Of a stretch of 64,000 bases of DNA, positions 46,576-60,410 are shown piece after piece (the first letter of the stretch is position 1; each line of letters starts with the position of its first letter). Source of the DNA: Enterobacter sp. 10-1 (GTDB taxonomy: Bacteria; Pseudomonadota; Gammaproteobacteria; Enterobacterales; Enterobacteriaceae). The stretch lies in the NCBI GenBank assembly GCA_002270295.1, contig NISF01000001.1, positions 1,178,001 through 1,242,000 on the forward strand. The letters are read 5' to 3'. A program made the position numbers and the translations under genes. The notes below the pieces were generated by a model. That model had not been told where the DNA came from, did no database searches, and was given only the letters and a program-made list of their open reading frames with translations.

Positions 46576-47691
46576 TTAGTCCATCCAGTCGTCGATAATC
46601 GCCCCGTACAGTCGCTCAGCCTCGTCCAGCCGGCTGAGCAGGCAGTACTCGTCGGTCTGGTGGGCCATCGACGGTTCGCCGGGGCCGAGAATAATGCAGG
46701 GCGGATTATCCAGCGCGGGCAGCAGCAGGGAGGCGTCGGTAAAGTAGGGCACAACGCGCGGCTCCAGCGGCCTGTCGTGCAGCGGCTGGCAGCGCCGATA
46801 AATCTGCGCTATCCATGCGTGCCTCTCTTCGCTCAGCACCGCGGGCAGATCGACCAGCGTGGAGAGCGTCACGCTCTCGCCAAGCAGCGAGCTCAGCCGC
46901 TGTCGAATGGTGGCGTGCTGTAAATTGGGCGCGCTGCGGATATCCACATCAAAACGCGCTCGGTCCGGCACGGAATTAATATTTAGCCCGCCCTCAATGC
47001 GCCCGACGTTCAGCGTGGGCTGCTTCATCAGCGGATGCGGCGCTCCCGGCGAAAAATGGCGGATCTTACCCAGGGCATCCGCCGCCAGATAGATAGCATT
47101 AATCCCCAGCTCCGGCATCGCCCCGTGGGCGGTTTTCCCCCGGGTTTCACAGCGCAGCCACAGCGCCCCTTTATGGCCGATAACCGGGTAGTTGGCGGTG
47201 GGTTCGCCGACGATCAGCGCGCCGATCTCCGGCAGCGGAGCGGACTCGATCAGCGCCCGCGCGCCGTCGCAGCCGGTTTCTTCCCCGCCGGTGATGAGCA
47301 GCACCGCGCCGCGTCCGGCGAGGATCTCCTCCCGCCGCCGGACGCAGGCGACGGCGAACGCCGCTATCGCCGCTTTCATATCGCTGGAGCCTCGTCCGTA
47401 AAGACGCCCGTTCTCGATCTGCGAGCCGAAGGGGTCATACCGCCACCGCGCATTGCCGAGCGGAACGGTATCCAGATGGCCGGTAAAGGCCAGCGGTTTA
47501 CCGGCCGCCGCTCCCGGCAGACGAGCAATCAGATTGCTGCGCCCTTCGCCGAACGACGACAGCGAAATCTCGAAGCCGCTATCGCGAAGCCAGTCGGCAA
47601 AAAAACGCATGCAGTCGGCTTCGTTTCCCGGCGGATTGATGGTGTTAAAGCCCAGCAGATGCCGGGCCAGTTCGAGGGTGGTGGTCGCCAT
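46576..47691 (-). CDS. M20-family (ArgE/DapE) deacylase
   Basis: A 371-residue zinc amidohydrolase. Metal and catalytic motifs are FTGHLDTVP (about 68-76), RGSSDMKAA (about 99-107) and GGEETGCDGA (about 133-142, with the general-base glutamate). The dimerisation domain lies in the middle. Members remove N-acyl or N-formyl groups (ArgE, DapE, and YlmB, which deformylates a thiamin-derived pyrimidine in Bacillus). It is the last gene of a minus-strand series from the ABC ATPase gene, touching the upstream gene by one base. Substrate unknown. Confidence 0.85.
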   Translation of the reverse strand: MATTTLELARHLLGFNTINPPGNEADCMRFFADWLRDSGFEISLSSFGEGRSNLIARLPGAAAGKPLAFTGHLDTVPLGNARWRYDPFGSQIENGRLYGRGSSDMKAAIAAFAVACVRRREEILAGRGAVLLITGGEETGCDGARALIESAPLPEIGALIVGEPTANYPVIGHKGALWLRCETRGKTAHGAMPELGINAIYLAADALGKIRHFSPGAPHPLMKQPTLNVGRIEGGLNINSVPDRARFDVDIRSAPNLQHATIRQRLSSLLGESVTLSTLVDLPAVLSEERHAWIAQIYRRCQPLHDRPLEPRVVPYFTDASLLLPALDNPPCIILGPGEPSMAHQTDEYCLLSRLDEAERLYGAIIDDWMD

Positions 47692-48446
47692 CAGCCGCGT
47701 TCCGTCAGCCAGTCGAGGCAGTTAATCCACAGCTGGCGATAGCCGGGCCATTTGGCAAACTCCTCGGGCAGCCAGTGTGCGGACATATCGCTGGTCCACA
47801 CCAGCGAACGCCCCTGCTGATATTCGCGCACCGCCAGCAGCGGATGCCCGGTGCCGGCAACGGTCGCCAGCAGCCTGCCTTCCGGGTGCATTTCCACTTC
47901 GTTATAGCCCAGCAGCCACGGCCACTCGCCCGGAATATCGTTAAACAGCGCGTGGGATTCGGTCACTTCGGCATAGCAGCCCTCCGGGGTTTCAATGCGA
48001 TCGTCCCACGCCAGGCAGCGCACCGGCAGAACTTTCTCCACCGCGGTATGGCGATAGCGCGCGCTGCCGTTAATCCCCTGGAAGCTGTAATAGCCGCCAA
48101 TCATCATCAGCGAGCCGCCGGCAGCAACGTAGTCATGCAGCAGCGTCAGACGGTTGGCGGTACGGCGGCTTTTCAGCCAGGTGTCCGGGTGCAGCAGCAG
48201 CGTGTTGGCGCCAATATCCGACAGGATAATCGCATCCCACTGCTGCAGTTCCTCCTGCGTCAGCGGGAACTCGGTTGCCGCCGCGTGGGCCGGCATATAG
48301 GTGATGGCATAGTGGCTATCGGCCAGCGCCGCCAGGAAATCCGTCGCGCCGTTGTGCCAGGTAGCGGTAGCAAACTGATCGAAGCCTTTAACGTGCGTTG
48401 AGGTGCTGGTCCAGGATTCACCGACCAGTAAAATTTTCTTCTTCAT
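47691..48446 (-). CDS. Glutamine-amidotransferase-fold protein (GATase1-like)
   Basis: A 251-residue protein of the class I amidotransferase-like fold (PF07090-type, sometimes annotated as cytoplasmic glutamine amidotransferase): ILLVGESWTSTSTHVKGFDQ, then DAIILSDIGANTLLLHPDTW and GGSLMMIGGYYSFQG. At the nucleophile elbow GGYYS replaces the cysteine-containing G-x-C-x-G of true amidotransferases, so glutaminase activity is doubtful. It lies in tandem between the phosphotriesterase-like and M20 genes. Confidence 0.7.
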   Translation of the reverse strand: MKKKILLVGESWTSTSTHVKGFDQFATATWHNGATDFLAALADSHYAITYMPAHAAATEFPLTQEELQQWDAIILSDIGANTLLLHPDTWLKSRRTANRLTLLHDYVAAGGSLMMIGGYYSFQGINGSARYRHTAVEKVLPVRCLAWDDRIETPEGCYAEVTESHALFNDIPGEWPWLLGYNEVEMHPEGRLLATVAGTGHPLLAVREYQQGRSLVWTSDMSAHWLPEEFAKWPGYRQLWINCLDWLTERG

Positions 48447-48461
48447 TATGACCTTTCCTTT

Positions 48462-49541
48462 TTATCCGCCAAATACCCGCTGGGGATTTCTAATCATCAA
48501 GGTTTCAAGCTGTTCGCCGCTGACGCCGTGGCGCCGCAAGCGAGGAACAAAATGCTTGAGTATGTAGCCGTAACCGTGGCCGCCGTAGCGGGTGAGCATG
48601 GTTTTCAGGAAAACGTCCTGCGACAGCAAAACCTGCTGGATATAGCCGTCGTCAATCAGCTCCCGAATGGCGCGGGCGTTCTCCTCGTCGGAGGGCGACT
48701 GCGCCGACTCATCGGCGTAGTAGTAGCTCATGCCGATCATGTCGTATTCGAGAAACGCCCCGCGCTGCGCCAGCTCGCGCTGATAGCGCTTATCGGCAAA
48801 GCTGGGATTCATATGGCACAGCACCGTATGGCGCAGATCGGCCCCTTCCTGTTCGAGAATATCCAGCACCCGATGACCAAGCCGCTCCCAGCCCGGTAGG
48901 TGGACCTCGATCGGTACGCCGGTCGCGGCGCTGGCCCGGCCCGCCGCGCGCAGGGACTTCTCTTCATCCGGGGTGAAGCGGCTGGATATGCCGATCTCGC
49001 CGATCACCCCGGCGACGATCTCCGGCTTCTCCTCCGCGCCGCCGAGGTCGTAGATCAGACTCTCGGTCAGCTGTTCGACGCTGCTGCTCTTCACCCACTC
49101 GGGGTGCGACGGCTCCAGATAGAAGCCGGTGCCCATAATAATGTTCAGCCCGGTCAGACGAGCGATGCGCGCCAGCGCCTGCGGATCGCGGCCAATGCCG
49201 ATATTGGTCGGATCGACCACCGTTTCCCCGCCAAGGGCGCGATATTTCGTCAGCTCTTCAATCGCCACGTCGACGTCAAACAGCTGGCAGTTATCGCGGC
49301 TGATCAGCGGGTTCAGCGACAGCTCGCCGAGGTTTTCCATCTTCACCGGCATTTCGGCAAGATGGCGATCGCTACAGCAGCAGGGCGGAACCCATTTGCC
49401 GGAGGCATCCAGCAGGATATGCTCATGCATCAGCGTTACGCCCATCTCGCTGACCGGCAGCGGGCCAAGCACCGTCATCACGCAGCCGCTGCTGATGCCG
49501 ACCGGCAGCGGAGTGGGGTGGCGAAAAATTGATCCTTTCAT
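48462..49541 (-). CDS. Phosphotriesterase-family metal hydrolase
   Basis: A 359-residue TIM-barrel amidohydrolase with binuclear metal ligands: H39 and H41 (LMHEHILLD), bridging-type E182 (GVIGEIGISS, the Glu variant seen in PHP-type members instead of carbamylated Lys), H214 (IEVHLPGW), H243 (LCHMN) and D309 (LSQDVF). An unusual CCC run (54-56) follows the first motif. Family members are lactonases, esterases and phosphodiesterases. The cluster context suggests lactone or phosphoester cleavage of the imported compound. Confidence 0.83.
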   Translation of the reverse strand: MKGSIFRHPTPLPVGISSGCVMTVLGPLPVSEMGVTLMHEHILLDASGKWVPPCCCSDRHLAEMPVKMENLGELSLNPLISRDNCQLFDVDVAIEELTKYRALGGETVVDPTNIGIGRDPQALARIARLTGLNIIMGTGFYLEPSHPEWVKSSSVEQLTESLIYDLGGAEEKPEIVAGVIGEIGISSRFTPDEEKSLRAAGRASAATGVPIEVHLPGWERLGHRVLDILEQEGADLRHTVLCHMNPSFADKRYQRELAQRGAFLEYDMIGMSYYYADESAQSPSDEENARAIRELIDDGYIQQVLLSQDVFLKTMLTRYGGHGYGYILKHFVPRLRRHGVSGEQLETLMIRNPQRVFGG

Positions 49542-49544
49542 GAG

Positions 49545-50555
49545 CTATCCTTTCGCCGCTGAGCGCGTGGGGTTAAGAATGCGGGTGTTCAGCCAGATAG
49601 CCAGCAGGATAATGGTGCCGGTGGCGATCTGGGTGTAGAACGGCGAGATATGCGACAGGATCAGCCCGTTCTGAATGACCGCAATCGACAGCGCGCCGAG
49701 CAGCGTGCCGATAATGGTACCGAAGCCGCCGAACAGGCTGGTGCTGCCGAGTACAACGGCGGCAATGACCTGCAGTTCGAAGCCTTCCCCCTGGTTGGAT
49801 GAGCCGCTGCCGAGGCGCGCGGTAATAATCATTCCGGCCAGCGCGGCGGCCATTCCGCTGATGATGTACACCCTCATAGTCACCGCTTTGGTGTTAATCC
49901 CGCTGCGCCGTGCGCCCTCGGCGTTGGCGCCGATAGCCGTAACGTAGCGGCCAAAGCGCATATGATTCAGCACGATATGCCCGATAACCAGAACCATAAC
50001 GCCGATCAGCGCCGGCATGGGGATACCCACGACCCAGGCGCGCCCGATAAAGGTAAACAGGCTGTCGGCGGGAACCGGAATCGAATAGCCCTGGGTCACC
50101 AGCAGCGCGATGCCGCGAACAACGGCCAGGGTGGCGAGGGTGACGATAAACGCCGGAATGCCTTCATAGGCAATAAAGAAGCCGTTAATGGCGCCGACTA
50201 ATCCGCCGAGCAGCAGACCGCCGAGCAGCACCACCGGCCACGGTAAACCCCAGCTGTTGAGGGCGATGGCGGAGAGCGCGCCCACCAGCGCGAGGGTGGA
50301 GCCCACCGACAGGTCGATGCCGCCGGTGGTAATCACCAGGGTCATCGCGGTCGCCACGATCAGCAGCGGGGCGCTCTGGCGAATGATATTCAGCCAGTTG
50401 GTACCGGTAAGGAAGTTGCTGGTAATGAGCGAAAACACCACGCAGCAGAATACGAAAAACAGCGCGATGCTGACCACGCCCGAGTGGTTATGCAGCAGGC
50501 GCCGGGGCAGCGAATGCTGGATCATGCGGGAGCTGCTTAAGTTCATGATACTCAT
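49545..50555 (-). CDS. ABC transporter permease (RbsC/BPD_transp_2 type)
   Basis: A 336-residue inner-membrane protein with eight to ten helices and the sugar/nucleoside permease signature ITTGGIDLSVGSTLALVGAL (about 75-95) and GANAEGARRSGIN near the EAA-type loop. It acts with the ATPase 9 bases upstream and the binding protein at 53060. Ribose-type importers take sugars, nucleosides or autoinducer-2. Confidence 0.88.
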   Translation of the reverse strand: MSIMNLSSSRMIQHSLPRRLLHNHSGVVSIALFFVFCCVVFSLITSNFLTGTNWLNIIRQSAPLLIVATAMTLVITTGGIDLSVGSTLALVGALSAIALNSWGLPWPVVLLGGLLLGGLVGAINGFFIAYEGIPAFIVTLATLAVVRGIALLVTQGYSIPVPADSLFTFIGRAWVVGIPMPALIGVMVLVIGHIVLNHMRFGRYVTAIGANAEGARRSGINTKAVTMRVYIISGMAAALAGMIITARLGSGSSNQGEGFELQVIAAVVLGSTSLFGGFGTIIGTLLGALSIAVIQNGLILSHISPFYTQIATGTIILLAIWLNTRILNPTRSAAKG

Positions 50556-50564
50556 CCTGTTACC

Positions 50565-51347
50565 TCAGTGTGCAGCCGCAGAGCGGGCGGTGAATTTTTC
50601 GCCCACGATCAGGTTAACGATATCGCTCAGGCTGGTGTCGGCCACCCGGCGGTCGGCGACGTTGGTGCCTTCATACATCACCATGATCCGGTCACAGACC
50701 AGGAACAGGTCCTGCAGGCGGTGGGTGATCAGAATGACGCTTACGCCGCGAGCGGAAACGCGGCGGATAAGCTCCAGAACCGCTTCCACTTCCGCAACGG
50801 CCAGCGCGGCAGTGGGCTCATCCATAATCAGCACCTTGGGGTCAAAAGCCGCCGCGCGGGCGATGGCGATGGCCTGGCGCTGGCCGCCGGAGAGATTGCG
50901 TACCAGCAGACGGGTATCGGGAATAGAAATACCCAGCCCCTTTAGCATCTCCCGCGCGTCGGCGTGCATTTTGGCCTCGTCGAGGAAGGGGATGCCGAGC
51001 ACCGATTTCATCGGCTCGCGGCCCATAAACAGGTTACCCGCGACGTCGACCGTGTCGCACAGCGACAGATCCTGATACACCATCTCGATATGGCAGCGGC
51101 GAGAGTCCGCCGGATTGGTAAACTGGTGCTGTTCGCCATCGATGCGGATGGTGCCGCTGGTGGGGATCACCGCCCCGGATAGCACTTTGGTCAGGGTTGA
51201 TTTCCCCGCGCCGTTATCGCCCACTAAGCCCAGCACTTCGCCCGGAGCCAGCTCCAGGTTCACGCCGCGCAATGAGCGTATCGACCCGTAGGTCTTGGTG
51301 ATATTGATCATCTCTACCCTTGGCGGGGTAGTTTGTGGCTGCTGCAT
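50565..51347 (-). CDS. ABC transporter ATP-binding protein (single-domain RbsA-like)
   Basis: A 260-residue ATPase with Walker A GDNGAGKST (about 43-51), signature LSGGQRQAIA and Walker B VLIMDEPTAAL. RbsA-class proteins have two ATPase halves (about 500 residues); this one has a single copy, as in FrcA/XylG-like short forms, so it presumably dimerises. It is the first gene of the minus-strand series; two GTAAACCGGTTTAC palindromes lie upstream. Confidence 0.87.
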   Translation of the reverse strand: MQQPQTTPPRVEMINITKTYGSIRSLRGVNLELAPGEVLGLVGDNGAGKSTLTKVLSGAVIPTSGTIRIDGEQHQFTNPADSRRCHIEMVYQDLSLCDTVDVAGNLFMGREPMKSVLGIPFLDEAKMHADAREMLKGLGISIPDTRLLVRNLSGGQRQAIAIARAAAFDPKVLIMDEPTAALAVAEVEAVLELIRRVSARGVSVILITHRLQDLFLVCDRIMVMYEGTNVADRRVADTSLSDIVNLIVGEKFTARSAAAH

Positions 51348-51428
51348 CCGATCACTCCCATCGCTATTGCCGGGAAAATGTTCGCCCTTCCGGGTAAAAG
51401 AACTCCATCCAACACGGCTTACACCCTT

Positions 51429-51442
51429 GTAAACCGGTTTAC
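51429..51442. promoter_or_regulatory. LacI-type operator O1 upstream of the ABC operon
   Basis: GTAAACCGGTTTAC, a perfect 14-bp palindrome with the central CG typical of LacI/GalR operators, 82 bases upstream of the ATPase start. Confidence 0.75.
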
Positions 51443-51601
51443 CTGCGGAGTGGAGCTTTCACAAGCACGGTCAGGTCAAACGCTATTTAAGATATTTGTT
51501 CGCCAGTTAGAACATTGCAGCATCCGTGCCAGGGCAGAAAAAACACAGCAGCCCCATTACTTAACTCTCTGTAAAAGAAAGAATTTATTAACGGTTTATA
51601 A

Positions 51602-51615
51602 GTAAACCGGTTTAC
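51602..51615. promoter_or_regulatory. LacI-type operator O2 upstream of the ABC operon
   Basis: A second exact copy of GTAAACCGGTTTAC, 173 bases from O1 centre to centre and between O1 and the lacI-like gene. The spacing allows repression by looping. Confidence 0.75.
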
Positions 51616-51692
51616 TAATTATAATCAACAGATTTTGAGTTGAACGTTTTTTGCGCCAAAACTGGGCGCTTTTGCGCCATTTTGGGACGCGC

Positions 51693-52715
51693 TTAACAAA
51701 TCTTGATCGAATCGCGACCGATCCATTCCACCGGCAGGCGGGTTTCCGCCGGGATATCTTTCTCGTTATTCAGCAGGCGCAGCATGATGCTCACCGCGGT
51801 GCGGCCCAGCTCGCGCGCGGGCTGGCGAATGGTTGAGATGCGCGGCTGGGTAAAATCGGCATAGTTTGCGTCATCGAAGCCGACCAGCGACAGCGCCTCC
51901 GGCGCCTGCAGCCCGCAGGCGCGCAGCCCGTCGAGCAGACCAAGTACCAGATAGTCGCTGGCGGCGAAGACGGCGGTGGGGCGAAGCGGCTGGCTGAACA
52001 GGTGCCGCAGCGCCTGCTGGCCGAACTCGCGCTGGTAGTCGCCGTACATTACCCACTCGGGGGGCCAGCTCAAACCGGCCTGCTCCATCGCGGTGCAGAA
52101 TCCCTGGTAGCGTTCACGGACGCTCATCAGCTTGTCCGGCCCGCCGACGAAGGCGATACGGCGGTGCCCGGCGGCGATCAGCTTTTCCGTCGCAATCCGC
52201 CCACCCTGGACGTTATCGGCAAAGACTTTCGGCACCTTGCTGCCGGGAATGTCCTCATCCAGCAAAACGATGCGCTCGTGACGCTGGATCTCTTTACGCA
52301 GCAGGCCGTTATCGGGGCGGTTGGTGGTGAACAGCAGGCCGTCGACCTGGCAGGTATCCAGCCAGCGAATGAACTGGCACTCTTTTTCCGGATTATTGCG
52401 GGTGATGCACAGCACCAGGCTGTAGCCGCTGGCCGAGGCGGCCTCTTCGGCGGCATCGGCCAGTTCGGCGAAGAAGGGGTTGGTAATATCGGGGAGTACC
52501 AGCCCGAGGGTTTCGCTGCCCCCTTTGCTAAGGCGGCGCGCCAGGCTATTTCCGCGATAGTCCAGCTCGCGGATCGCCGTTTCAATGCGGTCGATAGTTT
52601 CCTGCGGCAGCACAATATTGTTGTTCATATAGCGAGATAAAGTGGCCTTCGACAGTCCCGCCAGCTTTGCCACATCGGATAACAATACGCGTTTTATACT
52701 CATTTCCTGCGCCAT
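51693..52715 (-). CDS. LacI/GalR-family regulator of the salvage cluster
   Basis: A 340-residue protein: N-terminal LacI HTH and hinge helix (about 9-65, LLSDVAKLAGLSKATLSRYM; hinge NSLARRLSKG), then a periplasmic-binding-protein-like effector domain (LGLVLPDITNPFFAELADAA, FDDANYADFTQPRISTIRQP). The start could be 52715 or 52703. Two perfect operators downstream and one near-match upstream indicate that it controls the ABC operon and the binding-protein gene. Confidence 0.88.
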   Translation of the reverse strand: MAQEMSIKRVLLSDVAKLAGLSKATLSRYMNNNIVLPQETIDRIETAIRELDYRGNSLARRLSKGGSETLGLVLPDITNPFFAELADAAEEAASASGYSLVLCITRNNPEKECQFIRWLDTCQVDGLLFTTNRPDNGLLRKEIQRHERIVLLDEDIPGSKVPKVFADNVQGGRIATEKLIAAGHRRIAFVGGPDKLMSVRERYQGFCTAMEQAGLSWPPEWVMYGDYQREFGQQALRHLFSQPLRPTAVFAASDYLVLGLLDGLRACGLQAPEALSLVGFDDANYADFTQPRISTIRQPARELGRTAVSIMLRLLNNEKDIPAETRLPVEWIGRDSIKIC

Positions 52716-52799
52716 TTCTACCAGAGTCGGCTATCTGTAACATAGTTAAGCGCGGTCAATACAGCAATTTCTCGGGCAACAACGACGTTAAATAAATGC

Positions 52800-52875
52800 T
52801 TGACAAAATTTAATCGGCGGAGAATTGTATAGGCAGTTTACCGCATCATCCGGGAAATGATTCCCAAACCCGTTT
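52800..52875 (+). promoter_or_regulatory. Promoter and operator-like site upstream of the binding-protein gene
   Basis: A perfect -35 TTGACA lies at 52800-52805, followed 20 bases later by TGTATA. AAACCCGTTT (52866-52875) matches the AAACCGGTTT operator core at 9 of 10 positions. The remaining 184 bases to the 53060 start show no gene. Confidence 0.5.
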
Positions 52876-53059
52876 AAGTCATTCCAGTCGCGCACCGACA
52901 CGGACCGGTTGCCGGAATGAAATTAAGCAGGTCCAGCCGAACAATCGACGATCGTTCTGGCCATCTGGACGATATTTGCCCGCCAAAAAATAATCCTTCT
53001 GCGTTCGCACCGCGGCGCGGAACTCTGCTGGCTATCAACTATTCCCGATGAGGATACTG

Positions 53060-54013
53060 ATGATGTTATTTAACACCGGAAAACTGCGTTCTATTGCTAT
53101 TGCAACGTCTCTGCTGGCATCGCTTAGTTTTATTTCTTCCGCCAGTGCCGCCAATCCAACCTATGCTTTAGTTCAAATTAATCAGCAGGCTTTGTTTTTT
53201 AATCTGATGAATAAAGGCGCGCAGGATGCAGCCAAAGCGAGCGGAAAGGATTTAGTCATTTTCAACTCCAACGATAATCCCGTCGCGCAGAATGATGCGA
53301 TTGAAAACTATATTCAGCAAGGAGTTAAAGGCATCCTCGTCGCCGCCATCGACGTTAACGGAATTATGCCAGCGGTAAAAGAAGCCGCCGCCGCTAACAT
53401 TCCGGTGATTGCTATCGATGCCGTATTACCGGCGGGGCCTCAGGCGGCTCAGGTCGGTGTGGATAATATCGAAGGAGGCAGAATCATTGGTAAATACTTC
53501 GTTGACTACGTGCAGAAAGAGATGGGCGGCCAGGCGCGGCTGGGTATCGTCGGCGCCTTGAACTCGGCGATTCAGAACCAGCGGCAGAAGGGCTTCGAAG
53601 AGACGCTGAAAAGCAACCCGAAAATTACCATCGCCAACGTAGTCGACGGGCAGAACGTGCAGGATAAAGCGATGACCGCGGCGGAAAACCTGATTACCGG
53701 CAACCCGGATCTGACGGCGATCTACGCCACCGGCGAACCCGCTCTGCTGGGCGCCATTGCCGCAGTGGAAAACCAGGGGCGCCAGAAGGATATTAAAGTC
53801 TTCGGCTGGGACCTGACGGCGAAGGCGATTTCGGGCATTGACGGCGGCTACGTTACCGCCGTGCTGCAGCAGGACCCTGAGCAGATGGGGGCTGAGGCCC
53901 TGAAGGCGCTGAACGCGATCGCTTCGGGTAAAACCGTGCCGAAAACCATTCTGGTTCCGGCTACGGTGGTGACCAAAGCGAACGTGGATACCTACCGCTC
54001 GCTGTTTAAGTAA
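53060..54013 (+). CDS. Periplasmic sugar/nucleoside-type binding protein (RbsB-like)
   Basis: About 317 residues with a signal peptide (about 1-30, ending SSASA) and the type I periplasmic-binding fold: VQINQQALFFNLMNKGAQDA, QNDAIENYIQQGVKGILVAA, then VGVDNIEGGRIIGKYFVDY. Start 53060 is chosen because GAGG lies 7 bases upstream. It is encoded on the opposite strand from its permease and ATPase, so the importer is split across two transcripts. The ligand is unknown; ribose-like or nucleoside-like is a guess from family. Confidence 0.86.
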   Translation: MMLFNTGKLRSIAIATSLLASLSFISSASAANPTYALVQINQQALFFNLMNKGAQDAAKASGKDLVIFNSNDNPVAQNDAIENYIQQGVKGILVAAIDVNGIMPAVKEAAAANIPVIAIDAVLPAGPQAAQVGVDNIEGGRIIGKYFVDYVQKEMGGQARLGIVGALNSAIQNQRQKGFEETLKSNPKITIANVVDGQNVQDKAMTAAENLITGNPDLTAIYATGEPALLGAIAAVENQGRQKDIKVFGWDLTAKAISGIDGGYVTAVLQQDPEQMGAEALKALNAIASGKTVPKTILVPATVVTKANVDTYRSLFK

Positions 54014-54016
54014 TCT

Positions 54017-54886
54017 TCAGGCATCGCCCGTCGCTAACAGGGCGGCGAGTTCCTGGCCGTCGGGGAATGCGCTGAACGTCCCCCGGCGGCTCACGGTGAT
54101 GGCGGCGGCGCGGCTGGCATGAGCCAGCGCCAGGGCGTCCGGCGCCACTCCGCGCCGCAGCGCCGAGGCCAGCATAACGGCGAGAAAAGTGTCGCCGGCG
54201 CCGGTGGTATCAAGCGCCTCGACGGCGGCGGCGGGCGAGAAGCTGCGCTGGCCTTCGCGGACCAGCCAGGCGCCGGCGGCGCCCTGGGTAATGACTAAGG
54301 TCTGCACGCCGTACGGCTGCAGCTGCTCCGCCTCTGACTCATTGACGACCGCGATATCGACCAGCGGCCACAGGAGAGAAAAATCAGGATTGACCGGCGA
54401 AGGATTAAATACCGTCGTCATACCGCGCGCTTTGGCGAACTGAAACAGAGCCCGCGTTTTTTCCAGCGAGAAATTACCCTGCTGCAGCAAAATATCGCCT
54501 GCAGCGCCGTCTGCCAGATGCGGAATAATATCATCGAGGCTAAATGTATCGGCGGCGGCGGTAGTGGTAATAATCGCATTATCGCCGTCGGCGCTATTTA
54601 AGATAATCGAGGTGTCGCTATGTTGGTTGAAATGTCCGGTGGGTAGCAGCGTCAGTGGTTCATTTATTAGCTGCTGGCGTATCCAGGCTCCGTTGCTGTC
54701 ATTTCCCGTGGCCGCAATTAAGCGTGTATCTATGCCGCAGCGGGATAATATAATCGCCTGATTCGCGCCTTTTCCGCCGAGATCCTGCGAAACTTTAATA
54801 CCATGAATTGAGGCGCCTTTTTTCGGGATATCCGAAATGGACCAGGTTTCATCTACGGTAATATTACCGATAACGTAAACACGCAT
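54017..54886 (-). CDS. PfkB-family (ribokinase-like) kinase
   Basis: A 289-residue kinase with the N-terminal GGKGANQA motif (about 37-44) and the C-terminal anion-hole/catalytic-base motif DTTGAGDTFLAVM (about 226-238). The N-terminus VYVIGNITVDETWSISDIPK resembles ribokinases. It would phosphorylate a sugar or nucleoside-type substrate. Its stop is 3 bases from the convergent binding-protein stop, and its start is 26 bases from the divergent BtpA start. Confidence 0.85.
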   Translation of the reverse strand: MRVYVIGNITVDETWSISDIPKKGASIHGIKVSQDLGGKGANQAIILSRCGIDTRLIAATGNDSNGAWIRQQLINEPLTLLPTGHFNQHSDTSIILNSADGDNAIITTTAAADTFSLDDIIPHLADGAAGDILLQQGNFSLEKTRALFQFAKARGMTTVFNPSPVNPDFSLLWPLVDIAVVNESEAEQLQPYGVQTLVITQGAAGAWLVREGQRSFSPAAAVEALDTTGAGDTFLAVMLASALRRGVAPDALALAHASRAAAITVSRRGTFSAFPDGQELAALLATGDA

Positions 54887-54912
54887 AGTGTTCCCTTAAC
54901 AGGATGGATAAC

Positions 54913-55758
54913 ATGACTTCTATATCAGCAGAAAAGACCAATGCAATACAAGATATTTTTTCACGTAGTAAAGTAGTCATTGGTGTGATTCACTGCGACC
55001 CATTTCCTGGTACGCCTAAATATCGTGGTAAATCAGTAAGTGGTATTATTGAACGGGCGCTTCGTGATGCGGAAAATTATATTGCGGGCGGCGTTCACGG
55101 TCTGATTGTTGAAAACCACGGCGATATTCCCTTTTCCAAACCAGAGGATATCGGTCCTGAAACATCGGCGCTGATGGCGGTCATTACCGAGAAAGTTCGC
55201 GAGCGCTTCGGCGTGCCGCTGGGCATTAACGTGCTGGCCAACGCCGCTATTCCGGCGCTGGCTACCGCGCTGGCGGGGGGGGCCGATTTCGTCCGCGTAA
55301 ACCAGTGGGCCAACGCCTATATCGCCAACGAGGGGTTTATTGAAGGGGCGGCGGCGAAGGCGCTGCGCTATCGCAGCCAGCTGCGCGCGGAGCATATTCG
55401 CGTCTTTGCCGACAGCCACGTCAAGCACGGTAGCCACGCAATCGTGGCCGACCGTTCGATTCAGGAGCTGACCCGCGACGTGGACTTCTTCGAAGCCGAC
55501 GCGGTGATCGCCACCGGCCAGCGCACTGGCGATAGCGCCACCACGGAGGAAATCGATGAGATCCGCGCCGCAACCGCGCTACCGCTGCTGGTGGGCTCCG
55601 GCGTGACGCCGGCTAACGTCTGCCAGATCCTCGGACGCACCCAGGGAGTGATCGTCGCCAGCACCATGAAAGTAGACGGCGTCTGGTGGAACGATGTCGA
55701 TCTGGCGCGGGTTAAGCACTTTATGTCGGTCACCCAGGCCGTGCTGGAGGATGCGTAA
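54913..55758 (+). CDS. BtpA/SgcQ-family TIM-barrel protein
   Basis: A 281-residue protein with BtpA/SgcQ family stretches: VIGVIHCDPFPGTPKYRG near residue 23, GVHGLIVENHGDIPF, then ADFVRVNQWANAYIANEGFI and VLVGSGVTPANV-like phosphate-binding loop (LLVGSGVTPANV). Members are sugar-operon associated, and their reaction is not established. The start at 54913 is chosen because AGGA lies 8 bases upstream; an ATG at 54904 lacks one. Its stop overlaps the TenA-like start (TAATG). Confidence 0.8.
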   Translation: MTSISAEKTNAIQDIFSRSKVVIGVIHCDPFPGTPKYRGKSVSGIIERALRDAENYIAGGVHGLIVENHGDIPFSKPEDIGPETSALMAVITEKVRERFGVPLGINVLANAAIPALATALAGGADFVRVNQWANAYIANEGFIEGAAAKALRYRSQLRAEHIRVFADSHVKHGSHAIVADRSIQELTRDVDFFEADAVIATGQRTGDSATTEEIDEIRAATALPLLVGSGVTPANVCQILGRTQGVIVASTMKVDGVWWNDVDLARVKHFMSVTQAVLEDA

Positions 55759-56402
55759 TGGAAGCGTTTAGCGAGCGCCTGCTGCGTGAACATCAGCAGG
55801 TCTGGCAGGCGATGCAGCAGCACCGCTTTGTGGTTGATATTGAGCAGGACCGCCTGCCGGAGACGGTATTTAACCGCTATCTGGTTTTTGAGGGCAACTT
55901 CGTCGCTACGGCGATTGCGATTTTTGCCCTCGGCGTCAGCAAGGCGCCGGATATTCGCCAGCAGCGCTGGCTGATCGGCGTCCTCAATGCGCTGGTGGAC
56001 ACGCAGATCGCCTGGTTTGAACAGGTACTGGCCGAGCGCCGGGTTAATCCCGCCGACTATCCGGACGATCGGCCCGGGGTGCGCCGCTTTCGCGACGGCA
56101 TGCTGCGGATAGCCCGGGAGGGGAGCTATGAACAGATTATTACCCTGATGTTCGGCGCGGAGTGGATGTACTACCACTGGTGCCGGCGGGTGAGCGAGGG
56201 CAGCCAGAGCGATGCGGACCTCCGGCGCTGGGTAGAAATGCATGCGGAAGAGGAGTTTTACCGCCAGGCCCGCTGGTTGAAGGAGGAGCTGGACCGCTGC
56301 GCGATGGCGCTTAATGAAAGCGAAAAGCAGGCGCTGTCAGCGCTGTACGGCGAGGTGCTGCAGTGGGAGATCGATTTCCATACCGCGGCGTATGAGGCGT
56401 AG
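55758..56402 (+). CDS. TenA-like protein (TenA_E type, without the catalytic cysteine)
   Basis: A 214-residue all-helical protein of the TenA/thiaminase II fold (YLVFEGNFVATAIAIFALGV; HAEEEFYRQARWLKEELDR; EVLQWEIDFHTAAYEA). In TenA_C enzymes the nucleophile lies in a LPCYW-type motif. Here the aligned helix reads MFGAEWMYYHWC, with no cysteine at that point and a glutamate near it, so it fits the TenA_E group, some of which hydrolyse aminopyrimidines. Translation is coupled to the BtpA gene. Confidence 0.75.
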   Translation: MEAFSERLLREHQQVWQAMQQHRFVVDIEQDRLPETVFNRYLVFEGNFVATAIAIFALGVSKAPDIRQQRWLIGVLNALVDTQIAWFEQVLAERRVNPADYPDDRPGVRRFRDGMLRIAREGSYEQIITLMFGAEWMYYHWCRRVSEGSQSDADLRRWVEMHAEEEFYRQARWLKEELDRCAMALNESEKQALSALYGEVLQWEIDFHTAAYEA

Positions 56403-56575: not shown

Positions 56576-57274
56576 CTAACGGCGGGTGATATGTTTGACG
56601 TTGTATTTGTTGGTATTCTGGTAGATATCGGATAAATCGACGCAGATATTATTCTGCGCATAGCTGAGCGACTGCACCCGCAGCAGGAGGCTGTTTTGCG
56701 GCACCTGCAGGAACTCCGCCTGTTCCCGGGTTGCCAGAACCGGCGAATAGCTACGATGGCTCTCGAGAATGGAAATATTGCACTCTTTCTTGAAATAGTT
56801 AAATTTCGATCTTTCCAGATTGCCGATGCTTAACCACGGAAAAATCGCCACCGGGATATAGCTGTTTTCAATCAGAATGGGCACGTCGTCGATAAGGCGA
56901 ATGCGTCGGACGTAATAGACTTTTTCCCCAGGCTCAATTTTTAACTGCTGGGCGATAGCTAGAGGGGCGTTGATCATGGTGAATTCAATCACCTTATTGC
57001 GATAATTGGTCACGCCGACGACATGCATCTGGTAGTTAAACCCATCGAGCTCCCCTCCATGATAGTTGCTCTTGCGCGCCACATACGAGCCGCTGCCGTG
57101 CCGTTTGACGATCAGTTTTTCCTCTTCAAGCAGCGTTAGCGCCTTACGGATAGTCATCACCGAAGCCTGAAGCTCCTGCGCCAGCGTCTTTTCGCTGGGT
57201 AACGCATCCCCGATTTCGTATTCGTCGCTGTTGATGCGATTTTTTAGCTCACCTGCAATTGATTTGTATATCAC
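56576..57274 (-). CDS. GntR/HutC-family regulator of the alpha-glucoside PTS genes
   Basis: A 232-residue protein with GntR winged helix (about 5-68, ALPSEKTLAQELQASVMTIR, KRHGSGSYV) and a UTRA effector domain (about 85-225, IENSYIPVAIFP). It is divergent from the PTS gene with a 260-base gap, so it is likely its repressor, with a phosphorylated disaccharide as plausible inducer. The gap to the TenA-like gene (56403-56575) contains only imperfect hairpins. Confidence 0.85.
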   Translation of the reverse strand: MIYKSIAGELKNRINSDEYEIGDALPSEKTLAQELQASVMTIRKALTLLEEEKLIVKRHGSGSYVARKSNYHGGELDGFNYQMHVVGVTNYRNKVIEFTMINAPLAIAQQLKIEPGEKVYYVRRIRLIDDVPILIENSYIPVAIFPWLSIGNLERSKFNYFKKECNISILESHRSYSPVLATREQAEFLQVPQNSLLLRVQSLSYAQNNICVDLSDIYQNTNKYNVKHITRR

Positions 57275-57420
57275 TTATAGATGTCTCTGGTGGATGAGTT
57301 GCTGCGAGATTATAATTTAATTCATTGATTAATAATAAAATAAATAAATTAACCGTTACAGATATCGAAATGTCATCTAAAAATAGGCTTTTACATATAT
57401 ATCTATTCCATTCAAAGGTA

Positions 57421-57436
57421 TATGACTTTCATCACA
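57421..57436 (+). promoter_or_regulatory. CRP site upstream of the PTS operon
   Basis: TATGA-CTTTCA-TCACA matches the CRP consensus TGTGA-N6-TCACA at 9 of 10 positions. Its centre is 106 bases before the PTS start codon, compatible with class I or II activation. The AT-rich DNA on both sides would hold the divergent gntR promoter. Confidence 0.65.
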
Positions 57437-57534
57437 AATGATGATTTTGCCGATCTGATTTATTTCGACCCCGACATAAGCTGGGTTCCATGTTCCGCGG
57501 CGCTGGCAGGCGCCGGATGGTAAAGGGGTCGATA

Positions 57535-60410
<2,876 letters not shown>

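Follow-up and report, generated by a model that had tools for sequence, protein, structure and literature searches.

Partial counterparts of the gene cluster described here, ten genes at positions 46576-56402 of a 64,000-nucleotide stretch of Enterobacter sp. 10-1 DNA (the window, C11:1178001-1242000 of a 6.1 Mb source genome in 37 contigs), are found in several described systems. The E. coli pseudouridine system PsuT-PsuK-PsuG pairs a PfkB kinase bearing Asn143 with a following enzyme that acts on the 5'-phosphate. The cluster has a kinase with the equivalent Asn and, in our proposal, would have a comparable following enzyme, but it carries an ATP-binding cassette (ABC) importer for PsuT, a BtpA/SgcQ-family protein (BtpA) for PsuG, and additional proteins of the phosphotriesterase (PTE), GATase1_like (GAT), M20 and TenA families. 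Its kinase is only 17-18% identical to PsuK, PsuG (PF04227) has no match in the source genome, and the cluster, while working like PsuK/PsuG in our proposal, is not a member of the pseudouridine pathway. Substitution of PsuG by the BtpA cluster was considered and rejected, mutual exclusion being not significant in 20 genomes of the genus (both in 2, cluster only in 8, PsuG only in 5, neither in 5; Fisher P 0.35). The ribose operon RbsDACBKR has an importer, regulator and kinase of the same families, whereas the cluster lacks RbsD, has a single-domain ATPase where RbsA-type ATPases have two domains, has changed ribose-contact residues and includes five additional hydrolase or unassigned genes. 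The E. coli sgc operon (sgcABCEQX) also has a BtpA/SgcQ protein alongside a metallohydrolase and a system for sugar uptake. An E. coli SgcQ shares 25.7% identity with the cluster BtpA, but sgc has a phosphotransferase system (PTS) in place of an ABC importer and kinase, an epimerase-like SgcE, and no PTE, GAT or TenA. The sgc substrate is unassigned as well, the operon is induced on some nitrogen-containing carbon sources and mutants grow normally on the substrates tested (PMC13343008). Mammalian PTER and the Rhodobacter protein 3K2G are homologous to the cluster PTE over nearly its full length, including N-terminal residues absent from the E. coli Php match, and share with it a carboxylate (Glu) at the metal site; the substrate-side motif is HLPGW.R in the cluster clade but HPGRNER in the solved 'Phosphotriesterase-related protein' 9efa. 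Thiamin salvage by TenA_E and YlmB likewise employs a Cys-less TenA, with Ala-Glu for Cys, and an M20 enzyme, whereas the cluster TenA has its Asp44 and Tyr47 equivalents replaced and the importer and regulator are not of thiamin type. The original prediction that the gene set matches no characterised operon agrees with the searches made of open literature in PMC, which gave no description of this set. We know of no established bacterial role for BtpA/SgcQ, for the PF07090 'GATase1_like' family or for the 3K2G clade of PTE.

Our results indicate that the gene set is a conserved, regulated system with its own LacI regulator. The reading we favour, with confidence slightly short of even, is that it may serve nucleoside-like catabolism, as a dedicated, LacI-controlled system for a ribosylated, nitrogen-containing compound. 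All ten open reading frames (ORFs) are intact at the places first given for them, and their domain assignments hold in Pfam and NCBIfam profile scans. The binding-protein ORF is likewise sound but its proposed start at 53060 is not, since the ORF opens at 53048 (a start read from the ORF alone). By strand pattern the ten genes form several transcription units rather than a single operon. The M20 and GAT genes overlap by 1 base, as do the BtpA and TenA genes. The features are as follows.

46576..47691, minus strand: M20 (ArgE/DapE-type) metallohydrolase (Pfam PF01546/PF07687; TIGR01910 215.2 bits, just below the cut-off of 217.6).
47691..48446, minus strand: GATase1_like (PF07090) protein without a Cys nucleophile (PF07090 364 bits; PDB relatives 2gk3 and 3soz).
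48462..49541, minus strand: PTE-family (amidohydrolase superfamily) hydrolase of the 3K2G clade (PF02126 238 bits; 3k2g E 7e-122).
49545..50555, minus strand: RbsC-type ABC permease, BPD_transp_2 (PF02653).
50565..51347, minus strand: single-domain ABC ATPase of 260 amino acids (aa) (PF00005, ABC_tran; covers positions 4-251 of the 510-position AlsA model).
51429..51442, no strand: putative operator copy 1, GTAAACCGGTTTAC, a perfect palindrome (pattern scan of the genome).
51602..51615, no strand: putative operator copy 2, GTAAACCGGTTTAC, 173 bp from copy 1.
51693..52715, minus strand: LacI-family regulator (PF00356 with PF00532/PF13377).
53048..54013, plus strand: RbsB-type periplasmic binding protein with an altered pocket (PF13407, Peripla_BP_4; PDB 5hsg E 4e-177).
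54017..54886, minus strand: PfkB kinase, ribokinase-like, Glu143 to Asn (PF00294; PDB 3i3y/3ikh E 4e-165).
54904..55758, plus strand: BtpA/SgcQ-family protein (PF03437 230 bits, cut-off 30; TIGR00259 214 bits, cut-off 153).
55758..56402, plus strand: TenA_E-type (Cys-less) TenA-family protein (PF03070, TENA).

The solved structures 5hsg and 3i3y are of Klebsiella proteins.

The ten-gene set stays together across many soil, plant and marine bacteria. A scan with a BtpA alignment yielded at least 515 relatives; the best 80 loci were fetched and, with 6 annotated loci, the window proteins were mapped onto them by tblastn. Gene counts use the 78 of these 86 loci in which BtpA is preceded by at least 8.5 kb and followed by at least 3 kb of sequence, excluding 8 near a contig end and retaining L006, where the cluster runs in the opposite direction. 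Because loci were selected by BtpA similarity and a further candidate scoring was limited to 8000, the presence of BtpA in 78/78 is by construction and the counts describe close BtpA relatives only. Within this set PTE, permease, ATPase, binding protein and PfkB are also present in every locus, LacI in 77, GAT in 72 and TenA in 69. An ArgE/DapE-type M20 occurs in 44/78 loci and a carbamoylase-type M20 in 14/78, a hydantoinase/carbamoylase-type enzyme replacing the ArgE/DapE type in a number of Rhizobiaceae. GAT is missing between M20 and PTE in six of the 78, all enteric (L033, L039, L044, L045, L046 and L048), with the other genes kept. The closest cluster among the best 80 of at least 515 loci is that of Raoultella terrigena, with a BtpA 97% identical. 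The 30 plasmid-collection records matched by megablast of the block, 9 of them over at least 80% of its length, came mainly from Klebsiella and Pantoea, and Rhizobium, Pannonibacter, Ponticoccus and others gave partial matches; no match turned up among 20,395 E. coli records. Rhizobium johnstonii 3841 has the cluster on pRL9, at 237192-245364. In the genus sample a PTE orthologue of at least 84% identity is present in 10 of 20 genomes, the source genome included. Two loci carry irregularities of their own: in L008 (CP125156.1, Klebsiella pneumoniae) an annotated IS1 appears to sit within the cluster pfkB, whose match falls in two pieces, and in L071 a cluster of alphaproteobacterial layout lies on a contig labelled Enemella evansiae, an actinomycete, and so is possibly mislabelled or a contaminant.

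Linkage also holds beyond this selection. Among 398 Pseudomonadota genomes the PTE clade occurs in 10, the BtpA clade in 11 and both in 9 (hypergeometric P ~9e-16, a value that ignores genome kinship and uses cut-offs, E<1e-150 for PTE and E<1e-90 for BtpA, placed at the list gap after inspection). The two genes lie less than 7 kb apart in 8 of these 9 genomes; the ninth, G249, has them on two contigs in two separate operons. The TenA clade (E<1e-60) is found in only 4 of the 9, and TenA is therefore accessory. The cluster consists of two modules, one of importer, PTE and GAT with M20 or a carbamoylase as an optional member, the other of importer, PfkB and BtpA with an optional TenA. Independent occurrence of the genes in relatives, the outcome named in advance as refuting the original prediction, is partly observed: the modules also occur as separate operons, and TenA and M20 are optional.

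The cluster also has a putative regulatory site of its own. In the interval from the end of lacI to the ATPase gene stand two perfect 14-bp palindromes, GTAAACCGGTTTAC, 173 bp apart. No other site at one mismatch or fewer occurs in the whole genome; both precede the ATPase-permease-PTE-GAT-M20 genes, and a reversed control pattern gave no site in the source genome. At up to three mismatches the window holds 5 sites against 1.43 expected, the two perfect ones being the GTAAACCGGTTTAC copies. Sites of the GTAAAN4TTTAC class are present in the control region of 42/43 enteric loci, before the ATPase gene, and of 32/40 other, mostly alphaproteobacterial, loci, in front of lacI, where the importer-PTE-GAT genes begin; 33 of the 43 enteric loci retain two such sites. 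These counts cover 83 loci, the enteric ones being L009-L049 with L007 and L008 added, and omit L006, L058 and L074 where LacI or the ATPase was not found, and 108 of all 111 occurrences fall in the control region. Of the three others, two precede by ~70-80 bp an M20 gene that is transcribed separately (L005, site 14442 and gene start 14374; L071, site 12627 and M20 match end 12550), which ties M20 to the same circuit in these loci; the third is in the arsenic-gene region of L007. The LacI protein of the cluster probably binds these palindromes. The unity of the cluster is argued from the sites in the control regions and before the lone M20 genes, and the claim that the ten genes form one functional neighbourhood is upheld by the conserved gene set together with its own regulator and operator. 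A further palindrome at 54856-54869 is inside the pfkB coding sequence. Promoter and terminator scans gave no more matches than in shuffled sequence.

Residues of the kinase and binding protein favour a ribosylated substrate over free ribose. The comparisons cover 84 kinases, 83 binding proteins and 74 TenA proteins (excluding L008 and loci without a near-full-length match), with RbsK, RbsB and PsuK of E. coli MG1655 as references; 31 of 37 rows were kept for the structure alignment. Glu143 of ribokinase is a residue with a functional role in that enzyme. Its column holds Asn in all 84 cluster kinases and aligns with Asn143 of E. coli PsuK. In PsuK this Asn contacts N3 and O4 of the pseudouridine base (PMC9247573). 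None of the 14 other full-length PfkB kinases of the source genome has Asn in this column (4 partial sequences of 19 matches were excluded), and the RbsK orthologue, 85% identical to E. coli RbsK, retains Glu143, as do three kinases that stand next to GAT where BtpA is absent. The binding protein retains F15, F16, D89, R141, D215 and Q235 of RbsB, while N13 is changed to Ala, R90 to Ala (81 sequences) or Ser (2), S103 to Val and N190 to Gly across all 83 sequences; we take these RbsB residues to be its ribose contacts. A pocket with part of the contacts kept and others small or apolar fits a ribose-bearing but larger ligand, in line with the prediction of an importer for a compound with a ribose-like part.

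The hydrolases may remove amide-linked groups. The presumed metal ligands of the PTE, H39, H41, E182, H214, H243 and D309, are invariant in an alignment of 6 sequences and give the binuclear-metal pattern HxH, carboxylate, H, H, D of the amidohydrolase superfamily. N-acetyltaurine (PMC11374699) and N-acetyl-beta-alanine (PMC13311154) are hydrolysed by mouse PTER, for which Foldseek gives 3K2G as the top match. As 3K2G is the nearest solved homologue of the cluster PTE, this protein is as likely to be an N-acyl amide hydrolase as to open a lactone, ester or phosphoester, the chemistry first suggested for the gene set; the family assignment first made for it is retained. The GAT protein belongs to PF07090 as proposed, but 12 homologues share no invariant Cys and have GGYxS(F/Y) at the elbow. 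Its motifs are therefore not those of a class I amidotransferase, and glutamine amidotransferase activity was rejected for want of the Cys. Its sub-threshold Pfam matches offered nothing useful.

BtpA has no sequence relative in the PDB at E 0.001. Its conserved C-terminal stretch, GSG...GVIVASxxK, is a TIM-barrel-like phosphate-binding signature, and over this motif TrpA matches 5 of 6 BtpA proteins (E 0.0004-0.019) and HisA and TrpF one, all below the Pfam cut-offs. The weak signature suggests a phosphate-binding TIM barrel. In Halobellus limi, which otherwise has nothing in common with the cluster in the stretch read, BtpA still adjoins an annotated carbohydrate kinase. A stretch of Roseivivax marinus contains importer, TenA, BtpA and a pair of PfkB genes, one of them fused to LacI, but neither PTE nor GAT. 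The source genome has a second BtpA/SgcQ gene (L001, G000:C32:115751-116515), 29% identical to the cluster BtpA and located behind an ORF that looks DeoR-type by eye, an sgc-like context. In TenA, an absent Cys with a neighbouring Glu is the defining mark of TenA_E, and Asp44 and Tyr47 are pyrimidine-pocket positions. All 74 cluster proteins have Ala for the catalytic Cys and Glu as the next residue, and all 74 have Glu at the Asp44 equivalent and Phe at that of Tyr47 (columns set against one thiaminase II, L133, and for Asp44 also against the source genome's own, second TenA, which is encoded elsewhere, bears Cys and has Asp44). The TenA_E label holds as to the Cys-less Glu type, and at two pyrimidine-pocket positions the protein differs from thiamin-pyrimidine enzymes.

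On a plasmid of Sagittula stellata E-37 (L130) the genes PfkB-BtpA-x-x-BtpA-TenA adjoin annotated dihydropyrimidinase, RidA, AllE ((S)-ureidoglycine aminohydrolase) and a Zn-dependent hydrolase. Among NCBIfam models this hydrolase fits allantoate amidohydrolase best, though below cut-off. A 246-aa gene between the two BtpA genes has no Pfam match and, among the relatives listed (120 of 226), no informative name except one 'DUF3291' label. C-N chemistry is argued from this neighbourhood of ureide and pyrimidine genes together with the carbamoylase of 14/78 loci. A beta-alanine-type product was considered and rejected: aminotransferase and aldehyde dehydrogenase genes stand beside some alphaproteobacterial clusters, but none of 3 scanned reached the equivalog cut-off and their presence is inconsistent.

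The importer, the altered kinase, the putative phosphate-barrel BtpA and the varying last hydrolase, ArgE-type M20 or carbamoylase, are our grounds for the nucleoside-like reading, and we infer each of its reactions and their order as follows. The RbsB-type protein, with its enlarged ribose pocket, would import the compound with the single-domain ATPase and permease. The PTE-type metal hydrolase and M20 (the carbamoylase in some rhizobia) would then remove or open acyl or ureido amide parts, with the GAT protein acting at some step of this same branch. PfkB would phosphorylate the ribosyl 5'-OH of the trimmed compound, and BtpA would cleave or isomerise the phosphoribosyl compound in the manner of PsuK/PsuG, delivering ribose 5-phosphate or a ketose to central metabolism and the pentose phosphates. 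Finally TenA would hydrolyse a C-N bond of the released nitrogenous part. A more specific version, doubtful though worth stating, is that BtpA may cleave or isomerise phosphoribosyl compounds made by a PfkB nucleoside kinase acting before it and that, with TenA_E, the 3K2G-type PTE and PF07090, it may form a new and widespread route for a ribosylated nitrogen compound. As a guess, candidate substrates for that route would be ribosides whose base has a reduced or opened ring, for example dihydrouridine and hydantoin or ureide ribosides. A ureide or reduced-pyrimidine riboside is our first guess at the substrate, made with low confidence, and any single named compound, dihydrouridine and hydantoin ribosides included, has little chance of being the right one.

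A number of observations weigh against the nucleoside-like reading. Loci with more distant BtpA have no PTE; BtpA occurs without PTE in L130 and L135 and, in the 398-genome draw, without the PTE clade in G197 and G331, while G356 (L105) has the PTE clade in the order LacI-importer-PTE-GAT-M20 and no BtpA match anywhere in that genome. As the modules are separable in this way, the order and linkage of the steps are not fixed. The regulatory evidence is incomplete, with no site in the control region of 8/40 non-enteric and 1/43 enteric loci, and none before the binding protein, pfkB or btpA-tenA in the 41 enteric loci scanned (L009-L049). The other base contacts of PsuK (Y97, M114, V166, S167 and K170) are not conserved in the cluster kinases, which retain Lys43 and the PxP motif of ribokinase. 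Some BtpA-linked kinases lack the Asn, S. stellata having a gap and Halobellus a Tyr at this position, and Gly stands there in two LacI-PfkB fusions, that of L135 and that beside GAT2 in L085. In the binding protein F164 of RbsB is replaced, by Gly in one alignment and by Asn in another. BtpA has equally weak matches to the unrelated families FMN_dh, Asp_Glu_race and Peptidase_C26 in single members, and the sixth protein matches none of TrpA, HisA and TrpF. The ureide genes of S. stellata are served by a transporter of their own, and their position beside the cluster genes may be incidental.

Of the alternatives, the strongest is a non-nucleoside derivative of ribose, acylated or lactonised, such as a sugar amide, a sugar lactone or an opine-like conjugate. 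Under it PTE would open the lactone or ester, M20 would free an amino acid, GAT would act on the sugar, the kinase on the trimmed sugar, and BtpA would isomerise the sugar phosphate. We consider this unlikely, yet it accommodates several GAT contexts of the plasmid collection, which are a selection (19 of the matches listed, two of them in unannotated records). The GAT region of Monoglobus has an N-acyl homoserine lactone (AHL)-lactonase-family protein, a ribokinase and ribose-type ABC genes; on pTiA47a GAT is near fructoselysine kinase, SIS and hydantoinase genes, although a LysR gene stands between it and the sugar genes. Three kinases beside GAT in the absence of BtpA (L127, L128 and L139) retain Glu143, and the PTE/GAT/M20 module is found without kinase or BtpA in its stretch. 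Against the same explanation, Glu143 is lost in every one of the 84 cluster kinases, and the carbamoylase and TenA_E point to nitrogen-rich aglycones. GAT also occurs with a CN-hydrolase and M24, with a hydantoinase, an annotated N-carbamoyl-beta-alanine amidohydrolase and a CN-hydrolase, and, in two Rhodococcus plasmids, beside LacI and a kinase. In Rhodococcus aetherivorans pN1 (L139) GAT-LacI-PfkB adjoins annotated ribose-phosphate pyrophosphokinase, nicotinate phosphoribosyltransferase, a flavin-dependent oxidoreductase and a flavin reductase, an unusual ribose-linked cluster in its own right.

A less probable explanation, to which we give a small share, is that two unrelated modules acting on two compounds are neighbours, one of PTE, GAT and M20 and the other of PfkB, BtpA and TenA, with one importer family in common. 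Separate operons are indeed seen in G249, where L108 and L109, on different contigs, carry importer-PTE-GAT and LacI-importer-TenA-BtpA-kinase respectively, and Rhizobium sp. ASV8 (L070) has both modules side by side with a separate importer each. Enteric sites are found only before the PTE operon, which is itself present without BtpA in L105, and the BtpA module is present without PTE in L135. However, most of the 86 mapped loci have a single importer for the two modules together, 9 of the 10 genomes with the PTE clade also have the BtpA clade, the site before lacI heads the combined cluster in 32/40 non-enteric loci, and in G249 either module has a binding protein sharing 56% identity with that of the window. 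A different second module (ATPase, binding protein, permeases and ArgE/DapE-type M20) follows the cluster in Pantoea-type and Rhizobium-type loci (L007, L019, L023, L025, L026, L042, L047, L060, L062, L082 and L085). Its binding protein is annotated as autoinducer-2 (AI-2) type in L007, and in L060, L062, L082 and L085 it adds a second GAT and a relative of the L085 LacI-PfkB fusion.

That the cluster is simply an operon for using ribose or a pentose, carrying passenger genes, is very improbable. Importer, kinase and regulator do resemble RbsABCKR, and the solved kinase 3i3y carries ribose, but the source genome has a true RbsK orthologue, pocket residues differ from those of the ribose proteins in 83/83 binding proteins and 84/84 kinases, and PTE is present in 78/78 close loci, though absent from those with more distant BtpA. 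Least probable of all is thiamin pyrimidine salvage by the N-formyl-4-amino-5-aminomethyl-2-methylpyrimidine (FAMP) route with M20 as a YlmB-like deformylase acting with TenA_E, for although M20 and a Cys-less TenA occur together as do YlmB and TenA in Bacillus (YlmB role, PMC10470507), the Asp44 and Tyr47 equivalents are replaced in 74/74, a second TenA with Cys and Asp44 exists in the source genome, the importer is ribose-type and the regulator LacI, TenA is missing from 9/78 loci, and S. stellata E-37, with such a TenA beside BtpA, does not grow on FAMP, which the authors explain by a missing FAMP transporter (same source).

Directly downstream of the cluster, window positions 56576-60410 hold a GntR regulator, a PTS permease and a GH4-like 6-phospho-glycosidase, named by sequence appearance only; there is no sign that these genes are part of it.

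If the more specific version, with BtpA behind a nucleoside kinase, is correct, it would bring a first function for BtpA and PF07090 and a new one for the 3K2G-type PTE and this branch of TenA_E. Solved relatives exist for the binding protein (5hsg) and for the kinase (3i3y/3ikh), so that a ligand screen on one protein could assign the pathway. For thiamin salvage, the S. stellata E-37 case matters: the strain is reported to have TenA_E yet not to grow on FAMP (PMC10470507), and its plasmid, the only replicon searched, holds a single TENA match, in the BtpA cluster. Assuming this is the TenA_E counted in that report, it may serve a pathway other than FAMP use, and since this TenA_E-type gene lies with BtpA and PfkB next to ureide genes, thiamin salvage may be overestimated when it is judged by TenA_E counts. 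The pathway would span Enterobacterales, Rhizobiales and Rhodobacterales and would tie BtpA, PF07090 and the 3K2G-type PTE into one unit.

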